Source: a virus. Taken from it: a stretch of 35,297 nucleotides of DNA. The DNA lies in the IMG/VR virus record IMGVR_UViG_3300044695_003736, positions 1-35,297 of that record. One strand, written 5' to 3'. This document shows positions 6,084-29,947 of this stretch, one piece after another. Position numbers and translations under genes: made by a program. The notes beneath the pieces are model-generated. The model made no database searches. It saw only the letters and a list, made by a program, of their open reading frames with translations, and was not told where the DNA came from. Each line of letters starts with the position of its first letter. Position 1 is the stretch's first letter.

Positions 6084-6665
6084 ATGTCCATATCTATAGC
6101 AAATGATATATTTTCACAAAAAGAGATAGACCGTATTCGTCGTTTTGTTTCAAAGATAACCCCTAAATTAAATGATGAGTTGGGAAGGCTTGTATTTGGT
6201 GATATCAGAGATGCTTTGAGCGATCAGACATGCACTAAGTTATCAAAAATTGCAAAAAATGTTACCGACCTACCCTTGTCAATAGGCAGTGCAATCTATG
6301 TAGAATATAGTCCACTATATGGCAAACCTAACCTACCACCACACTTTGATGCAGACACAAATGATCTAATCCTTAACATCCAACTGGAGTCTAACACGGA
6401 TTGGCTGCTAGGATTAAACCTTGAAACATACCTATTAAAAGACAACTCTGCCCTGATATTTAATGGAAATAAAGAGATTCATTGGAGAGTGCATAAAGAG
6501 TTTAAAGAAGGAGAGTATGTTAAGATGTTGTTTGTAAGGTTTTCTAATCCCGACAATCTGTCAGACTACTCACACCTTAACCTTCTACAAGACAATGAGG
6601 TTTTTAAAGAAGCAAGAGAGTTTAGAGATAGTTATCCACAGCCTGATAAGCCAAAAATGTCATAG
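6084..6665 (+). CDS. 2OG-Fe(II) oxygenase-fold protein
   Basis: A 193-residue protein. His87-Phe-Asp89 ('PPHFDAD') is the proximal metal motif. 'ALIFNGNKEIHWR' supplies the distal His133, with Arg135 close by instead of the usual Arg about ten residues on. The same 'HFDA...HWR' layout recurs in the protein at 27310, so the two are paralogues and form a separate branch from the classic prolyl hydroxylases of this window. Substrate unknown. It stands alone with its own leaderless promoter. The last 11 codons contain a perfect DnaA box at the DNA level. Confidence 0.75.
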   Translation: MSISIANDIFSQKEIDRIRRFVSKITPKLNDELGRLVFGDIRDALSDQTCTKLSKIAKNVTDLPLSIGSAIYVEYSPLYGKPNLPPHFDADTNDLILNIQLESNTDWLLGLNLETYLLKDNSALIFNGNKEIHWRVHKEFKEGEYVKMLFVRFSNPDNLSDYSHLNLLQDNEVFKEAREFRDSYPQPDKPKMS

Positions 6666-6685
6666 TTATCCACATGTTATCCACA
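6632..6685. other. Cluster of three DnaA boxes, candidate replication origin
   Basis: Perfect TTATCCACA occurs at 6632-6640, 6666-6674 and 6677-6685, all on the plus strand. The first is inside the oxygenase gene end, the other two just after its stop. Further perfect boxes lie at 15547, 17195 and 17207 in promoter regions. A DnaA cluster next to repeats and AT-rich DNA is typical of origins; use as an origin here is inferred. Confidence 0.6.
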
Positions 6686-6722
6686 GATTAATCTTACTGA
6701 TAATATTGTTAGACATTCTAGA

Positions 6723-6749
6723 AGTGGAGTGAAGTGGAGGATAGTGGAG
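6723..6749 (+). repeat. Three AGTGGAG repeats at exact 10-base spacing
   Basis: AGTGGAG is found at 6723, 6733 and 6743, one helical turn apart, 38 bases after the last DnaA box. The phasing suggests repeated binding of one protein on the same DNA face. Confidence 0.6.
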
Positions 6750-6909
6750 CATAGAGCCCTTTTATAGAAGGCGTTCGTAATCTTTTTGCGGGAGAGGGGC
6801 CCTATCACAAAACCTTTATATTGTCAAACCTTCAAACCCCATAGCCCGATTTCGGATGATACCACAGATATAATGGTTTGTCAAGTCTTTTCAAACCTCA
6901 AAACCCCAT

Positions 6910-6935
6910 AAAAAAATCTCCCAAAACCAGGGAGA
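6910..6935 (-). terminator. Rho-independent terminator (minus strand)
   Basis: On the minus strand TCTCCC (6935-6930) pairs with GGGAGA (6922-6917) around a seven-base loop and is followed by seven T (6916-6910). It ends the transcript of the gene at 7242. Confidence 0.8.
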
Positions 6936-7011
6936 ATTTGTCGATAATCGTAATGTTATTTTATAAAACCAATATGAAATTTCTAGAAAACCAGGATAAA
7001 TGGTTTGTTAT

Positions 7012-7242
7012 TTACCATAGGGGTAATTGTGTATACTTTTGATCCCCGCTTGCAGCGTCCTTAACAGGATTATTAGTCATCGTTGGGGCGGGGGCAGAAG
7101 GAAAGAAAGCCTTAAGAGTAACAATAGAATACAACATACCACATAGAGCACCCATGTTTTTATTAAAGATCTCTATATCACGTGGTTGGTCGTGGCGATG
7201 TGAGGTTTGTTTAGATAGTTGAGAAAAATGATCTCTTGGCAT
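7012..7242 (-). CDS. Small hypothetical protein in the repeat region
   Basis: A 76-residue protein starting MPRDHFSQLSK. It has a His/Arg/Gln-rich N-terminus, a hydrophobic stretch at about 30-48 (possible amphipathic helix or single membrane pass), and a Pro/Ala-rich tail. The start is supported by TATAAT six bases upstream, and the end by a clear terminator 77 bases downstream, so it is a monocistronic unit. Its promoter overlaps a GGTTTG-T-CAAACC palindrome, hinting that the product or another regulator controls this locus. No family recognised. Confidence 0.6.
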   Translation of the reverse strand: MPRDHFSQLSKQTSHRHDQPRDIEIFNKNMGALCGMLYSIVTLKAFFPSAPAPTMTNNPVKDAASGDQKYTQLPLW

Positions 7243-7271
7243 AAAACCATTATAACATGGTTTGACAAACC
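7243..7271 (-). promoter_or_regulatory. Leaderless promoter overlapped by a palindromic operator
   Basis: TGT-TATAAT (7257-7249) lies six bases before the ATG at 7242. The perfect inverted repeat GGTTTG-T-CAAACC covers 7259-7271, just upstream of the -10 box. Binding there would block this promoter and the opposing one. Confidence 0.65.
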
Positions 7272-7290
7272 TGGTTTGATATGGTATAAG
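7262..7290 (+). promoter_or_regulatory. Plus-strand promoter TTGACA-N17-TATAAG
   Basis: TTGACA at 7262-7267, 17-base spacer, TATAAG at 7285-7290. No plus-strand gene follows; the next 80 bases end in a weak hairpin and T-run. Confidence 0.5.
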
Positions 7291-7296
7291 GTTTGG

Positions 7297-7375
7297 GGAT
7301 ATAAGGTTTGGATCGTAATGTTCTGTGGGGGCTACGGTTTGGTCGTTCGTAATGTCCTGATTCAGGGATTTTTTA
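7297..7375 (+). ncRNA. Candidate short RNA from the repeat region
   Basis: It would start about seven bases after TATAAG and end at the short stem TCCTG-ATT-CAGGGA followed by six T (7369-7374). It contains four GGTTTG and two TCGTAAT motifs and no usable start codon with a ribosome site. Known RNA families do not come to mind. Confidence 0.3.
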
Positions 7376-7451
7376 GATCGGTTCGTAATAAGGTTTGAAG
7401 GTTTGAAAGATGCACCGCCCCCTTCCAGCCCCGCAGGGCCAGAATAGAGAT

Positions 7452-10036: not shown

Positions 10037-10080
10037 CTCTATCGTAATTAAATTTTGGTTTGACATTTTTTAGGGGATTT

Positions 10081-10130: not shown

Positions 10131-10148
10131 ACCGCCCCATTTTTCTTG
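10131..10148. repeat. GC-rich intergenic element GACCGCCCC + CATTTTT (family of eight)
   Basis: GGGGCGGTCC or its complement, usually followed by GCATTTTTGCAG-GGGA, recurs near 7415, 10131, 11414, 13156, 14192, 15570, 16449 and 17217. Every copy lies between minus-strand transcription units, next to stops or 3' stem-loops. Some copies can fold (for example GCAT-AAAA-ATGC near 14205). GGCGTGTCG-type sequence accompanies several copies (13126, 15556, 16398, 17153, 17267). Confidence 0.55.
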
Positions 10149-10222
10149 CGATTCCAACGGGACTTGAACCCGTAGCCTCTACCGTGACAGGGTAGCGATC
10201 TAACCAATTGATCTATGGAACC
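10149..10222 (-). tRNA. tRNA-Asp (anticodon GTC)
   Basis: A 74-base cloverleaf on the minus strand. The acceptor stem is GGTTCCA (10222-10216) with TGGAATC (one G-T pair). D-arm GATC/GATC, anticodon stem CTACC/GGTAG with loop CTGTCAC giving anticodon GTC, and T-arm ACGGG/CCCGT with loop TTCAAGT. The discriminator is G and CCA is not encoded. It follows a conserved stem-loop 3' of the DUF932 gene and may be cotranscribed with it. Confidence 0.95.
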
Positions 10223-10259: not shown

Positions 10260-11276
10260 TTATACCAGTTGCAATTTATTCTGTACAACTTTTAGCAAAC
10301 GATTTTTTTCTGCGTTAATCGCAGGGTCAAAACCAGATGCAGATGCAAGGATTGATTCGTTAGAACCACCACGAGCAGAACGGTACCAATCAAGGCGTTC
10401 AGTTAGTGCATTGAAAGCACCCCAAGCATTACCAGCAATCATGCCGTTAAATTCGCCTGTGTAGATGTCATTGATAACATCGACCTTGTTTTCCCATTTC
10501 TTGAAAGCACCCTTAGAATCTTTTTCTGGCTTAGGGTATGCAGCAAGAATGATGTCATTAAATTGTTGAGCAGATACTTCTGTTTCAATCATAGCCTTAG
10601 CCATAAGGTCAAAAGAATCCATGTACTTGTGAGCCATGCCAAGAGTCTCACGAGCAACGGCTACCTTGCCAGATGCAGTTTGCGTGTGGCGAATCTTGAA
10701 AGATTGCTTAACGCCACCCTTGCGCTTAGTTGTGTTAAGTGCAATGTTAAGTGTGTTAGCACACACAACACGAACAGGTGTAATTGATGCTTGAATAGCG
10801 ATTGAGCCATCGTGTGATGTATTGATGAGAAGATAAGTTTTGATTTTATCTGCAACACCATTTGGGTCAAGAACTGTTTCACGCTCTAGTGCAAGGGCAC
10901 CGAATACAACACGTCCACCCTTAAGTGAACCAGCCGTTTCCCAACGACCTCCACCATCTAGAATGTTGTCACCGAATGAGAATAAATCTTCATTCTGCAT
11001 TACGTGATAACGTTCACCAACGACACCAAGAATGTCAGTCTGTGAGTTATCAGTAGGATTAGTACGCAAAACGTATTGGTACGCCTTGTCGCTTGTTAAA
11101 TGTGATGGGGTTTCCAAATCTTCCAGACGAACATTCCAACCGTTTAGGTTAGCAGCAGCAAGCATTTCGCTTGTTGTTTTTTCTTCTGTAAATACGGTAC
11201 CCAATCCATGCCATGCTGGTTCACGAAATGATGCGAATGAAGCCTTACCATTTTGTGTTTCGATTTCATGTGCCAT
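10260..11276 (-). CDS. DUF932 family protein
   Basis: A 338-residue protein starting MAHEIETQNG. I recognise DUF932 (phage/plasmid-like protein family) from the N-terminal 'AWHGLGTVF', the 'LGVVGERYHVMQNEDLF' segment and the central 'LLINTSHDGSIA' followed by 'TPVRVVCANTLN'. The biochemical role is unknown; members are widespread in plasmids and phages. A frame continues upstream to 11411, but the ATG at 11276 has an AAAGGAG ribosome site and a promoter in the leader region, so I use it. It is monocistronic or joined with tRNA-Asp. Confidence 0.92.
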   Translation of the reverse strand: MAHEIETQNGKASFASFREPAWHGLGTVFTEEKTTSEMLAAANLNGWNVRLEDLETPSHLTSDKAYQYVLRTNPTDNSQTDILGVVGERYHVMQNEDLFSFGDNILDGGGRWETAGSLKGGRVVFGALALERETVLDPNGVADKIKTYLLINTSHDGSIAIQASITPVRVVCANTLNIALNTTKRKGGVKQSFKIRHTQTASGKVAVARETLGMAHKYMDSFDLMAKAMIETEVSAQQFNDIILAAYPKPEKDSKGAFKKWENKVDVINDIYTGEFNGMIAGNAWGAFNALTERLDWYRSARGGSNESILASASGFDPAINAEKNRLLKVVQNKLQLV

Positions 11277-11307
11277 GAGTTTACTCCTTTGTTGTTGTTG
11301 AGATTTA

Positions 11308-11336
11308 AGTATAACAGGACGGGCTGACAAATGCAA
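11308..11336 (-). promoter_or_regulatory. Promoter TTGCAT-N17-TATACT with TGTCAG box
   Basis: TTGCAT (11336-11331), TATACT (11313-11308). TGTCAG at 11329-11324 lies ten bases before the -10, as in five other operon promoters. Confidence 0.75.
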
Positions 11337-11444
11337 ATTGGGATAGTTAAAGATTGGGGCAATTCGGACATTTCTTAATTGCATCGTAAACCATTTTGTG
11401 ATCTTGGTCACACGGGGCGGTCCGCATTTTTGCAGGGACTGAGG

Positions 11445-15546: not shown

Positions 15547-15555
15547 TTATCCACA
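15547..15555 (+). other. Isolated DnaA box
   Basis: Perfect TTATCCACA between the operon promoter and the GC-rich element; may allow DnaA-linked control. Confidence 0.45.
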
Positions 15556-16261: not shown

Positions 16262-16482
16262 AATTTTGACATTTATTCGCTAGGCTCATTGTGATACTCG
16301 TCACACTTATTTGCTAGGCTCATGCCTTGATTTATCTTTATTTAATTGTATAAGTAGAATACTACACTAGAAATGTCAAAAAGTCAAGTCCAAACACGGC
16401 GTGTCGTATGTGACCTTAACCACATTATTCCTGAGAGTCAACTGAGAGGGGGCGGTCCCATTTTTCAACGGGATCTAAACTT

Positions 16483-17194: not shown

Positions 17195-17215
17195 TTATCC
17201 ACATAGTTATCCACA
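17195..17215 (+). other. Two DnaA boxes in a divergent intergenic region
   Basis: TTATCCACA at 17195-17203 and 17207-17215, next to a GC-rich element, between the minus operon at 17066 and the plus operon at 17338. Confidence 0.45.
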
Positions 17216-18297: not shown

Positions 18298-18460
18298 CGA
18301 TCAACAAGAACTAAGTCCAGAGCAAGTTCAAGCAATCTTATTATTTCAGATTGAGCAAAAACTTAGAAACAGAATTGCACTTCAGGTAGAGTCAAAATTT
18401 CACGGTAAGTATCATAACGAATCGCATGAGATAGCGCAATTCATACGCAATATGTCTTAA
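18290..18460 (+). CDS. Small helical protein
   Basis: A 56-residue protein starting MNSDQQELSPE. Helical with 'QVQAILLFQIEQKLRNRIALQ', then a His-rich segment. Overlaps the preceding gene by eight bases, and its stop overlaps the convergent oxygenase stop by four. Function unknown. Confidence 0.65.
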   Translation: MNSDQQELSPEQVQAILLFQIEQKLRNRIALQVESKFHGKYHNESHEIAQFIRNMS

Positions 18461-19053
18461 AGAGTATACTTATATCCATCTGATTGCTCAATATCACCAA
18501 ATATACTTTTGTTTAGACTAACATTTTTTTCTTTTGTTCCAAACACAAAGGTTGTAGAAAAATATCTAACGTCGGAACTTAAAACCTTTGTAGTTCCATG
18601 AAGTATGCGTCCTCCATGAATTAACAGCGATCTGGCCTTTGGCTTATGCACTATTCCAACTTCTGGATAGTTAACTGCTCCACCATCATATTCGTCATTA
18701 TAGTAAAGAACTATCCCATATCTAATATGTTCGTCTTGCAATGTGTTCTTTAATGGGTCATAATCTCTATGAGGTTTCATAAAGTTTGTTTCTAAGTGTC
18801 TATTTAAACCAATTGGATAGACTTTATCTAATTCAAAAAAAAGATCTTTAATTTTTTTGTCAATATCTGAAAAAAAGTCTGGCTTGTCTCCAATTTTAAT
18901 TTTTCCATTAAAAAACTCTGAAACTTTTGGATCTTCGGTCCACCATTCAGACTCATCTAGAGATTTGCAGTAATCTAAAACTTTTTCTTGTTCTTCGATA
19001 CTTATAAAATCTTCAATTTCGTAAATATCTGGGGAAAGAAGTTTAACCTTCAT
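18457..19053 (-). CDS. 2OG-Fe(II) oxygenase (prolyl-4-hydroxylase-like)
   Basis: A 198-residue protein with all family landmarks: 'YEIEDFISIEEQEKVLDY' at the N-terminus, proximal metal motif His95-Arg-Asp97 ('KPHRDYDPL'), 'YYNDEYDGGAVNY' at 117-129, distal His152 ('ILHGTTKV') and 2OG-binding Arg163 ('DVRYFSTTF'). The catalytic set is complete. Phage members of this type are usually annotated only as hydroxylases; the substrate is unknown. Last gene of a four-gene operon with the DNA methyltransferase. Confidence 0.88.
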   Translation of the reverse strand: MKVKLLSPDIYEIEDFISIEEQEKVLDYCKSLDESEWWTEDPKVSEFFNGKIKIGDKPDFFSDIDKKIKDLFFELDKVYPIGLNRHLETNFMKPHRDYDPLKNTLQDEHIRYGIVLYYNDEYDGGAVNYPEVGIVHKPKARSLLIHGGRILHGTTKVLSSDVRYFSTTFVFGTKEKNVSLNKSIFGDIEQSDGYKYTL

Positions 19054-24890: not shown

Positions 24891-26999
24891 GTGGCAGAAG
24901 AGAATATTGACAATACCCCTAACGGTACTGGACTCTTCAATACCAAAATCCCAGGTCTTTCAGATGCAGCAGATATTCAGGCAGCACTAAGACTTTATCA
25001 CTATGGAACATACGAGTATGATGGTGCAAACACAAACCCTGCACTTCTTCCTAACCCATCAATCGCAAAGCATCTTCAAAACCTTGTCGCAGCCGATGCA
25101 GCAGAAATAGTAAATAGAAATGCAGCAATTGCAGCACATTCTGCAGACACTACAAGTGTTCATGGCATAGAAGACACATCTTTATTGGCAACACAAGAAT
25201 ATGTTGATAGTTCAATAAGCGATGCAATTGGTGGAGTGTCTGGATCATATTCTGGTCTTGCTGGAACAGGTCTTGACTGGAACCTTATTGATTTAAGGTT
25301 TGATGTTGAGCCAAGAATCTCAAACTCTTCATTAGTTACAACAAAAACAGATAGTTTTTCTTTAAGTCTTGACGATATTTCAAAAACAATATTGCTTGCA
25401 TCTCAAATACAAGGTTCTCCAATTCCTGGAGACCCAAATCCACCAATCACAATGACCGTGACTGTTCCAAACAATACGTCTGTTGCTATTCCAGTTGGAT
25501 ATAGTTATAACTTGATTCAGTTTAATTATGGAAGAACAATCTTTAGTCCAGCAAATGGTGTGACAATAAATAGTAAAAATTCTCAAATGTGGATTGATGC
25601 TCAATATGGAAAAGCAACAATATTAAAGGTTTCAGAAAATGGTTGGGTTCTTTATGGAGATATATATGAGGGTGTTGCAGAAACACCAGTAACCCCACCA
25701 GTTACACCACCTGTAACCCCACCAGTTACTCCTCCAGTTACACCACCCGTTACTCCTCCAGTGACACCACCTGTAACTCCACCTGTAACTCCACCTGTAA
25801 CTCCACCTGTAACTCCACCAGTGACACCACCAGTGACACCACCAGTGACACCACCAGTTACACCACCAGTTACACCACCAGTTACACCACCTGTAACTCC
25901 ACCAGTGACACCACCAGTGACACCACCAGTAACTCCACCTGTAACAACAGGAACAGTATATATAACATATTGTTATCAGGGAACACCAACCTCAGACACA
26001 TTTGTTGTTGATGAAAACAATGTTGTAACAACAAACATAAATAATGCTTGTTCTGCCTATGCATCTGTAATTGCTGGACTTCCAAATGGAGGAGGAACAA
26101 ACTACTCTTGCTCAATTGTTTCAATGCCTGCATTGCCTACTAACTGTTCTACTCCCGTTACTCCACCTGTGACACCACCAGTTACTCCACCTGTAACCCC
26201 ACCAGTGACACCACCTGTCACACCACCAACAGGTGGATGGTTTGCAACATTCTGTGCTAATGGAGTAGCAATCACAGAAGGTGGCAGTGAGTACCAAACT
26301 CTGGGTGAACTTCAGAACTGGATTGCTGGACAATATCTTTCAATAAGCAATGCTACTTACCAACAAGGCTCAGCACCTGCACTTCCAACTAACTGTGCTA
26401 CACCCGTTACTCCTCCAGTTACACCACCTGTCACACCACCAGTGACACCACCTGTAACTCCACCTGTAACTCCACCTGTAACTCCACCAGTGACACCACC
26501 TGTAACTCCACCAGTTACTCCACCAACATCTTGGTATGCATCTTTCTGTAGCAATGGCGTTGCTCTATCAGATGGACCACAACCAACTCAGCAAGATATG
26601 GCTCTTTACATAAGCGGAAACTATACAAACGTAAGCAACATTACATATCAGCAAGGATCCGCACCAGCACTTCCATCTTGCACACCACCACCAGTTACTC
26701 CTCCAGTGACTCCTCCAGTGACTCCTCCAGTGACTCCACCTGTCACACCACCTGTCACACCACCTGTTACTCCACCAGTGACTCCTCCAGTGACTCCTCC
26801 AGTGACTCCACCTGTGACACCACCTGTAACTCCACCTGTCACACCACCTGTCACACCACCTGTTACTCCACCAGTGACTCCTCCAGTGACTCCTCCAGTG
26901 ACTCCACCTGTGACACCACCAGTAACTCCACCTGTGACACCACCTGTTACTCCACCACCAGCATTTGGCGGAGGAAAATGGGACCCACAGAGTATATAA
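24891..26999 (+). CDS. Fibre/adhesin with PVTP repeats and three Cys modules
   Basis: A 702-residue protein, GTG start. Residues 1-266: fibre-type N-terminus with 'AAHSADTTSVHG' and 'TQEYVDSSISDAIGG'. Then PVTP tandem repeats in four blocks (about 267-350, 421-447, 505-545, 600-689). Between them lie three related modules of 55-70 residues with paired Cys: one starting 'YITYCYQG', the next 'WFATFCANGVA', the third 'WYASFCSNGVA', the last two sharing 'YQQGSAPALP'. The Thr/Pro blocks should be extended, mucin- or extensin-like stalks with many O-glycosylation or Pro-hydroxylation sites. The modules look like surface-binding domains held by disulfides. Confidence 0.9.
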   Translation: MAEENIDNTPNGTGLFNTKIPGLSDAADIQAALRLYHYGTYEYDGANTNPALLPNPSIAKHLQNLVAADAAEIVNRNAAIAAHSADTTSVHGIEDTSLLATQEYVDSSISDAIGGVSGSYSGLAGTGLDWNLIDLRFDVEPRISNSSLVTTKTDSFSLSLDDISKTILLASQIQGSPIPGDPNPPITMTVTVPNNTSVAIPVGYSYNLIQFNYGRTIFSPANGVTINSKNSQMWIDAQYGKATILKVSENGWVLYGDIYEGVAETPVTPPVTPPVTPPVTPPVTPPVTPPVTPPVTPPVTPPVTPPVTPPVTPPVTPPVTPPVTPPVTPPVTPPVTPPVTPPVTPPVTPPVTTGTVYITYCYQGTPTSDTFVVDENNVVTTNINNACSAYASVIAGLPNGGGTNYSCSIVSMPALPTNCSTPVTPPVTPPVTPPVTPPVTPPVTPPTGGWFATFCANGVAITEGGSEYQTLGELQNWIAGQYLSISNATYQQGSAPALPTNCATPVTPPVTPPVTPPVTPPVTPPVTPPVTPPVTPPVTPPVTPPTSWYASFCSNGVALSDGPQPTQQDMALYISGNYTNVSNITYQQGSAPALPSCTPPPVTPPVTPPVTPPVTPPVTPPVTPPVTPPVTPPVTPPVTPPVTPPVTPPVTPPVTPPVTPPVTPPVTPPVTPPVTPPVTPPVTPPVTPPPAFGGGKWDPQSI
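25687..26957 (+). repeat. 12-base tandem repeats encoding PVTP in four blocks
   Basis: Near-perfect CCA-GTN-ACN-CCA/T units fill 25687-25944, 26151-26229, 26404-26525 and 26688-26957. Third positions vary (GTT/GTA/GTG/GTC; ACT/ACA/ACC), so the protein repeat is conserved more than the DNA. Copy number changes by slippage are likely. Confidence 0.9.
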
Positions 27000-27077: not shown

Positions 27078-27308
27078 ATGTCTATGTCGATATGGGAAGC
27101 ATACAAAGAAAAAAATGGGGTTACCCCATTGGACATGTTAAATCCTATGACCAACTATGTTGAAGATGATGTCTATTCTTCAAGAATGTCTATTTGTAGA
27201 GCATGCCCAGAGTTAATTCAACTTACAGCACAGTGCAAAAAGTGTGGGTGTTTGATGGCCATTAAAAACAAGTTAGAAGCAGCAAAATGCCCTATTGGAA
27301 AGTGGTAA
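27078..27308 (+). CDS. Small zinc-ribbon protein (DUF6171-like)
   Basis: A 76-residue protein. 'RMSICRACPEL' and 'QCKKCGCLM' give Cys40-x2-Cys43 and Cys54-x2-Cys57-x-Cys59, and the end 'KCPIGKW' gives a further Cys. This matches small phage zinc-ribbon proteins often found next to oxygenase genes. Function unknown. First gene of the cassette. Confidence 0.75.
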   Translation: MSMSIWEAYKEKNGVTPLDMLNPMTNYVEDDVYSSRMSICRACPELIQLTAQCKKCGCLMAIKNKLEAAKCPIGKW

Positions 27309-27309
27309 T

Positions 27310-27897
27310 ATGAATAGAAAAGCATTTGTAATATCAGATGTGTTAAGTGAAAATGAGTTCCAGATAGGAAAAGAATATTTTATTAATTACTCACTAACAA
27401 GCAACAATGCATTAGATCAAGACGGTAGATGGCTTATAGGAAATGATGATCCGATGGTAAAGAAATATCATGAAATGCTTGTTCCACTTGCAAAAAAAGT
27501 TTTTAACAGCGAAACACTTTTGCCAACAAATGCGTTATTTGCAGAGTATACGTCTAAAGGATCTAAACTTGGTAAACATTTTGATGCTAATGCATGCACT
27601 TATACCATAGATCTTTGTTTTTATGAAAGTCATTCTTGGCCGCTTTTTGTTGAGGGAGAGCCATTTTTTTATAATGAAAATCAGGCAGTTTGTTTTTTTG
27701 GTGAAGAGCAAGAACATTGGCGTGAAGTTCTTAATGAAGAAAATATAAAGATTGGTGTTGCGTACTTTCATTATGTAGAGCCCGACCATTGGTTTTTTAC
27801 AAAGGGTCCAGGGTATGTAGAAGAAATAAGAAATGATTACAGATCAAGAGGATATACATATAATCGTATAAATAATACTGGAATGGCCCCACTTTAA
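27310..27897 (+). CDS. 2OG-Fe(II) oxygenase-fold protein, paralogue of 6084
   Basis: A 195-residue protein from the ATG at 27310, just after the preceding stop (an in-frame TTG at 27295 is less likely). His90-Phe-Asp92 ('LGKHFDANA') and 'EEQEHWREV' with His136 and Arg138 match the protein at 6084. The N-terminal half is helical. It belongs to the same transcription unit as GT61, which links hydroxylation and glycosylation. Confidence 0.78.
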   Translation: MNRKAFVISDVLSENEFQIGKEYFINYSLTSNNALDQDGRWLIGNDDPMVKKYHEMLVPLAKKVFNSETLLPTNALFAEYTSKGSKLGKHFDANACTYTIDLCFYESHSWPLFVEGEPFFYNENQAVCFFGEEQEHWREVLNEENIKIGVAYFHYVEPDHWFFTKGPGYVEEIRNDYRSRGYTYNRINNTGMAPL

Positions 27898-29380: not shown

Positions 29381-29947
29381 ATGCTTAATGCTAAAGTTAT
29401 TAAAAACTTTATATCTAAAGAGGATTGCAAATATTTAATTGATCTGTCAAACTCACTAAATGTTTGGGAAAATGCTGGCGATCCTTTTTGGGATAATAGA
29501 GTTATAAATTATGAGTCAGTTTTAAAATTTGATAAAAATGCTGCATCTATTATGATGAATGCAAACATTGGGTGTAGAAATATTATTAAAAATAGTTATG
29601 CTTTAAATTTTGATGTATATTCTGACACATTGCAAATAGTTAGATGGTTTCCAGGAATGGAGCAAGGCCCTCATGCAGATGACATGACAAACTCAGATGT
29701 CAAGGGACTTGATCATAGGGCATTTGGATCAATAATTTATTTAAATGATAACTATAGGGGTGGCCACACATACTATCCCAACTTTAATAAAGAAGTAATT
29801 CCAGAAACTGGGTCCCTTGCAATTCATCCAGGGGATCCAGAACATCTACACGGAGTAACAAAAGTAGAAGATGGAATGAGATATACAATTGTATCATTTT
29901 GGACTTTTGAAAAGGAGAAGAGCCGTGAATGGCCAATACCTGAATAA
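29381..29947 (+). CDS. 2OG-Fe(II) oxygenase (prolyl-4-hydroxylase-like)
   Basis: A 188-residue protein with the full catalytic set: 'IVRWFPGMEQGPHADDM' with His98-Ala-Asp100, 'IIYLNDNYRGGHTYYP' at 118-133, distal His157 ('HLHGVTKVEDGMRY') and Arg167. Same type as 18457. Starts one base after the cupin stop; its end overlaps the next gene. It is the best candidate for hydroxylating prolines of the fibres in this block. Confidence 0.88.
   Translation: MLNAKVIKNFISKEDCKYLIDLSNSLNVWENAGDPFWDNRVINYESVLKFDKNAASIMMNANIGCRNIIKNSYALNFDVYSDTLQIVRWFPGMEQGPHADDMTNSDVKGLDHRAFGSIIYLNDNYRGGHTYYPNFNKEVIPETGSLAIHPGDPEHLHGVTKVEDGMRYTIVSFWTFEKEKSREWPIPE

Follow-up and report, generated by a model that had tools for sequence, protein, structure and literature searches.

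Does the sparsely coding stretch described here, which the first-pass annotation had proposed as a candidate replication origin, start DNA replication, or does it serve transcription or packaging? The window analysed is an entire IMG/VR virus record (35,297 bases, classed as linear), which is probably a fragment of a larger phage genome. Its DUF932 gene (10260-11411) displays 81-94% identity across 80 kept viral contigs with lengths up to 118 kb, and about 50% identity to Streptomyces BE-cluster phages. Homologues of terL, DnaE, helicase, primase, SSB, RecA, portal, capsid and WhiB are common to the BE phage Samisti12 and six relatives of 108-118 kb. By these comparisons, the source phage would have a genome of roughly 100-118 kb and would be kin to the Streptomyces BE phages (Stanwilliamsviridae). 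The phage group infects freshwater bacteria, and WhiB together with the kinship to BE phages suggests an actinobacterial host. A DnaB-type helicase gene is present in the phages checked, in which no DnaA C-terminal domain was detected; DnaE, primase, SSB and RecA homologues are present in the relatives.

Elsewhere in the window, a 702-aa ORF (24891-26999) lies in a stretch with raised GC and a strong C excess. Short repeated words resembling CCTCCAGTGACTCC dominate the frequent k-mers of the window and may come from this ORF, whose product might in that case be a repetitive fibre-like protein. Several 2OG-Fe(II)-oxygenase-like or related PHROG matches also occur in this one fragment (1072-1809, 18457-19053, 27295-27897 and 29381-29947).

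The locus comprises the following features.

6632-6640, plus strand: DnaA box 1, TTATCCACA, within the 3' end of the ORF at 6084-6665, at a less conserved position
6666-6674 and 6677-6685, plus strand: tandem DnaA boxes 2 and 3, 11 nt start to start, the core of the module
6688-6711, plus strand: AT-rich tract of eight triplets (TTA ATC TTA CTG ATA ATA TTG TTA), all with T in the middle
6723-6749, plus strand: three AGTGGAG units (6723, 6733 and 6743) in exact 10-nt phase
6740-6770, no strand: putative left end of a terminal repeat, placed by spacing analogy with BE phages
6775-6781, plus strand: TCGTAAT unit 1, exact match
6825-6897, no strand: GGTTTG/CAAACC zone 1 (units at 6825, 6833, 6875 and 6892), overlapping the leftward promoter
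6856-6884, minus strand: leftward sigma70-type promoter, TTGACA-17-TATCAT, 11/12 consensus positions, with CAAACC overlapping its -35
6908-6935, minus strand: intrinsic terminator, TCTCCCTGGTTTTGGGAGA followed by a T run, closely preceding the promoter
6948-6954, 7313-7319, 7347-7353 and 7383-7389, plus strand: TCGTAAT units 2-5, exact matches
7012-7242, minus strand: conserved 76-aa gene, with homologues in 28/80 relatives on the same strand (median identity 63%)
7204-7405, no strand: GGTTTG/CAAACC zone 2, with nine units plus three TCGTAAT units

The three perfect boxes reported earlier were confirmed as exact TTATCCACA copies at 6632, 6666 and 6677 on the plus strand, spanning 54 nt. Order-2 Markov simulation of the window (300 runs) gave no such cluster (simulated maximum 1 vs three observed). 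When up to one mismatch was allowed, the whole window held 14 box-like sites vs 13.7 expected, and the enrichment is limited to the cluster of exact boxes. The repeat counts given with the boxes also proved exact and far above chance: the AGTGGAG triple at 10-nt phase appeared in 0 of 300 order-2 Markov simulations, the five TCGTAAT units compare with a simulated maximum of 3, and the GGTTTG/CAAACC family (14 units between 6825 and 7405) reaches 16 in its best 768 nt vs a simulated maximum of 6. The region had also been described as almost free of genes; genes are indeed sparse, but the frame at 7012-7242 is a real conserved gene and box 1 lies inside the ORF at 6084-6665.

Conservation was then assessed in 69 relatives and in a held-out set of 20 loci, retrieved by other queries and unused when the pattern was first noticed. 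The box pair lies directly upstream of the tract in 60/69 relatives and 19/20 held-out loci, with a third box 5' of the pair in 36/69 relatives; the relatives are akin to one another, so that these counts do not represent independent events. The adjoining gene (6084-6665) varies, unlike the conserved block at 6660-6790, and the box-to-tract spacing stays fixed despite this variable flank. The most conserved word, ATNTTACTGA, lies inside the tract and begins 5-6 nt after the second box of the pair wherever exact boxes occupy the expected place (70 sequences including the window). Sequence separating the boxes diverges while the exact boxes recur, in the relatives as well as in BE and BK phages of Streptomyces. 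AGTGGAG-like units, usually three, are conserved in most relatives and replaced in several (L011, L013, L020, L022 and L048). TCGTAAT around the block was counted 399 times in the plus orientation and 0 times in the minus orientation across the relatives. A coding explanation of the block was rejected, as no ORF is conserved and one subgroup shows a 2-nt length difference. We consider the locus, with high confidence, to be real, conserved and regulatory. Because exact boxes recur in the relatives, in the held-out loci and in BE and BK phages, the earlier suggestion that the host initiator is recruited is well supported as a claim about binding sites, and host DnaA likely binds here.

None of the bacterial chromosomes in our collection has ATNTTACTGA beside a box pair, and the sole match is a MAG-binned contig that is probably from a phage; an oriC captured from the host chromosome was rejected, the composite pattern being absent from every chromosome of the collection. 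The matching contig (L327:2379-2700), binned in a Chitinophagaceae MAG and probably mis-binned, carries the complete module. Both repeat families also occur together outside the main region, at 10042-10065, where TCGTAAT is followed 15 nt later by GGTTTGACA beside a tRNA-Asp gene (10148-10222).

The bacterial basal origin unwinding system (BUS) consists of tandem DnaA boxes and a DnaA-trio (PMC8287927, PMC6669920). The window resembles it in having tandem boxes, a short spacer and then triplets with a conserved middle base; the 2-3 nt gap between boxes, within the BUS limit of 3 bp, is shared by nearly all of the 60 pair-bearing relatives. A permissive search rule for trios (PMC8287927) asks for three or more NAN triplets no further than 16 bp from a box; the middle T of each tract triplet gives this pattern on the other strand, and runs of at least three occur in 69/69 relatives and 20/20 held-out loci, the window having eight triplets from 2 nt past box 3. 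Runs of at least five were found in 65/69 relatives, although the rule is permissive enough that 5.7% of shuffled tracts also reach such a run in some phase. Unlike BUS, the window triplets fit the strict consensus 3'-[G/A]A[T/A]-5' only in part, phased AGTGGAG and a strong promoter follow, and the boxes are replaceable. Since the strict form fits only some triplets, the tract is retained in relatives lacking boxes and BE phages have no clear tract, the trio reading is weak, suggestive rather than decisive.

Of 64 distinct sequences, 63 have at least one leftward promoter with 10-12 of 12 consensus positions in the searched span, against a shuffled background of 22 in 300. The relatives carry one or two near-consensus leftward promoters each, in which GGTTTG/CAAACC falls on the -35 or within the spacer; those with 11-12/12 positions cluster tightly between +150 and +250 relative to the tract and seldom occur in the rest of the span from -600 to +1600. 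Overlap with GGTTTG/CAAACC at preferred positions, e.g. GGTTTGACAAACC, was seen for 88 of 93 near-consensus promoters, which makes GGTTTG operator-like. The first-pass annotation had read the repeat families as origin features; their presence stands, but GGTTTG/CAAACC is reinterpreted here as operator-like and as overlapping strong leftward promoters. On the simplest reading of these sequences, GGTTTG is an operator, and the transcript, with a start predicted near 6849 from the consensus match, would cross TCGTAAT, AGTGGAG, the tract and the boxes. The terminator, present in 20/64 distinct sequences, would insulate the promoter from leftward genes. GGTTTG zone 2 (7204-7405) of the window contains no near-consensus promoter.

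Lambda ori and the T7 primary origin are transcription-activated phage origins, in which transcription from a strong promoter crosses an AT-rich element next to the initiator sites. The window is like them in this respect at the sequence level only, as are 63/64 of the sequences. It is unlike them in that its promoters are near-consensus host-type ones under GGTTTG operators, and no phage O-like initiator was identified.

The overlap of promoter and operator, the strongest single signal at the locus, might equally be expected if the locus controlled transcription alone. In such a case a repressible strong promoter would produce a short noncoding or antisense RNA, and DnaA would act as a transcription factor or roadblock, or would be titrated to hinder host replication. 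Units on -35 elements are typical of operators, and further exact boxes lie in intergenic positions of the window (15547 and 17195/17207), the genomes holding 4-13 exact boxes each vs about 1.5 expected. Against this, the downstream sequence shows neither a conserved reading frame nor a supported RNA structure (nine predicted pairs, none with a compensatory change), titration would need no fixed spacing to an AT-rich tract, and box clusters recur in BE and BK noncoding gaps that lack a strong leftward promoter. We regard purely transcriptional or titrating function as possible but doubtful. A structured RNA was rejected as a candidate: Rfam gave only a tRNA, and no covariation was seen. The additional boxes, one at 15547-15555 and a pair 12 nt apart at 17195-17215, precede leftward genes, and many relatives have similar boxes in that part; GGGGCGGTCCCA follows both the single box and the pair, with a third copy near 16450.

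Exact boxes are absent in 9/69 relatives. Two GGTTTGATAG units with 11-bp spacing stand at nearly the box position in L024, L026 and L030/L043, a GGTTTGA unit lies near it in L050, L073 and L079, and L035 has a degenerate box. When the presence of boxes was mapped on the DUF932 tree, six changes were most parsimonious, at least four of them on well-supported branches, with the caveat that the box region may recombine separately from DUF932. Boxes thus appear to have been lost several independent times, usually with GGTTTGA units in their place. The absence of boxes in these relatives and in the BE-like phage Coruscant, which has TCGTAAA, indicates that DnaA would not be indispensable.

This replacement at nearly the same place, with its 11-bp tandem in L024, L026 and L030, and a median density of 13 units per 800 nt would also fit a GGTTTG array of iterons for a phage-encoded initiator, with the DnaA boxes as auxiliary sites. 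P1 oriR and iteron plasmid origins likewise have DnaA boxes beside a short-repeat array in a single noncoding region. The window units differ from those: they are 6-8 nt long (consensus roughly AAGGTTTG), point in both orientations at irregular spacing rather than forming regular direct repeats, are operator-like in lying on the -35 or in the spacer of most near-consensus promoters, and have no recognised Rep gene nearby. An iteron origin is accordingly very improbable.

Cultured relatives offer a counterpart of the locus. Six BE phages (Samisti12, NootNoot, Bmoc, Riptide, MulchMansion and MindFlayer) have direct terminal repeats of 10.7-12.2 kb; their exact boxes lie 58-154 bp to the left of, and outside, the repeat start, and three to five TCGTAAA units, the BE counterpart of TCGTAAT, lie 212-725 bp inside it. 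The BE edge is thus like the window in placing exact boxes together with TCGTAA repeats in a single large noncoding gap, with homologous replication and packaging genes. Unlike the window, BE boxes mostly form an inverted pair about 23 nt apart, and the ATNTTACTGA tract, GGTTTG array and strong leftward promoters are lacking. In the BK phages Annadreamy and TunaTartare the repeats are 0.78 kb long, and three exact boxes lie 5.3-6.1 kb off in a noncoding gap of 1.0-1.5 kb, which in Annadreamy contains TCGTAAA as well; the boxes therefore follow the gap and not the cut site. No promoter above 10/12 matches was found in the BE and BK gaps, and none was placed like that of the window. The Rhodococcus relatives Trina and Francesca have no exact TTATCCACA near the repeat start.

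A genome end at or near the locus is observed in BE phages, and by analogy the freshwater genome may, with low confidence, have its left end near 6740-6770. The locus may well sit at the edge of a terminal repeat, so packaging and end-processing form a real rival to replication. The boundary would then be a terminase recognition and processing (pac) site, with AGTGGAG binding terminase and the promoter and boxes aiding duplication or processing of the repeat, and T7 provides a transcription-coupled concatemer junction as a parallel. Apart from the placement of BE boxes and TCGTAAA on the two sides of the repeat start, this is favoured by the similar box-to-TCGTAA spacing (109 nt in the window vs 114 nt in MulchMansion), by terL (52-55% identity) and the replication module being common to freshwater and BE phages, and by BE1 genome ends mapped from read-start pile-ups (PMC5764925). 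It is countered by the BK boxes, kilobases from the repeat start in a different gap, by the contig ends of the freshwater group, which scatter and share no one site, and by the exact DnaA boxes, which phased terminase sites leave unexplained. No freshwater record has two full-length DUF932 copies. A packaging site as the whole explanation seems unlikely to us, yet this rival and the transcriptional one are both live and could coexist with an origin.

The satellites MulchRoom and MiniFlayer were looked at as a test between origin and packaging, and both lack the cluster. MulchRoom (L328) shares end-proximal words with its BE helper, namely TGGGGTAT..TCGTAAG at the left end and CATGTAT at the right end, suggesting common end-processing signals in the two.

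The GC-skew check proposed for the candidate origin gave no support. In six near-complete relatives rotated to the block, the cumulative maximum lies 7-17 kb to the left and the minimum 16-35 kb to the right, away from the locus where a BUS would place the minimum; this is weak evidence, as gene direction probably shapes the skew. The BE gap is annotated with converging genes on both sides, and forks leaving it would therefore meet transcription head-on. Besides the skew extremes, the missing boxes in some relatives, the weak trio and the lack of a strong leftward promoter in BE and BK phages count against an origin. For it speak the arrangement conserved across about 70 relatives and the 20 held-out loci, the fixed box-tract spacing, the promoters in 63/64 sequences, replisome genes without DnaA, GGTTTGA replacement, a GGTTTG cluster unique in its density in the six near-complete relatives examined, and the association of DnaA boxes with TCGTAA, which recurs at the BE repeat edge and in the noncoding gap of a BK phage. 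The candidate origin thus remains plausible on its elements and conservation, with skew against it. The best single explanation, to which we give a probability of about 0.5, is a transcription-coupled, host-DnaA-assisted origin and control region.

From this pattern we infer that DnaA and a repressor bind, that the duplex unwinds, that helicase is loaded and that the locus is active as an origin, in the following way. Host DnaA would bind the tandem boxes (6666 and 6677) adjoining the AT-rich tract, and a factor on the GGTTTG/CAAACC operators would control the strong leftward promoter (6884 to 6856), whose transcription would pass through the tract. DnaA binding and transcription would jointly open the duplex, onto which the phage DnaB-type helicase, primase, SSB and DnaE polymerase would be loaded, with TCGTAAT as a strand-specific site for some factor.

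No description of the arrangement was found in the literature searched, which comprised open-licence papers only, so that its absence there is weak evidence; an origin with DnaA boxes has been predicted in another phage (PMC11512268). Cluster A mycobacteriophages have RNA-based prophage origins beside parABS, for prophage maintenance, in a text that does not mention DnaA (PMC7157519). These are like the window in lying in an actinobacteriophage noncoding region, theirs having a transcript implicated in replication, and unlike it in their prophage role, as the closest cultured relatives of the window phage are presumed virulent.

How replication starts in large virulent actinophages, and how long terminal repeats are duplicated, is poorly known. 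The locus brings boxes, tract, promoter and two repeat families together as separable parts of one precise, conserved candidate; cultured Streptomyces phages hold a counterpart open to direct testing, and natural variants without host-initiator sites exist. A virulent-phage origin at the edge of a terminal repeat, with a bacterial-style DnaA unwinding module under a repressible leftward promoter and with host boxes and phage GGTTTG sites exchangeable, is an unlikely reading. If it is true, replication begun there would copy the repeat, and lineages would repeatedly have put a phage factor in place of the host initiator.
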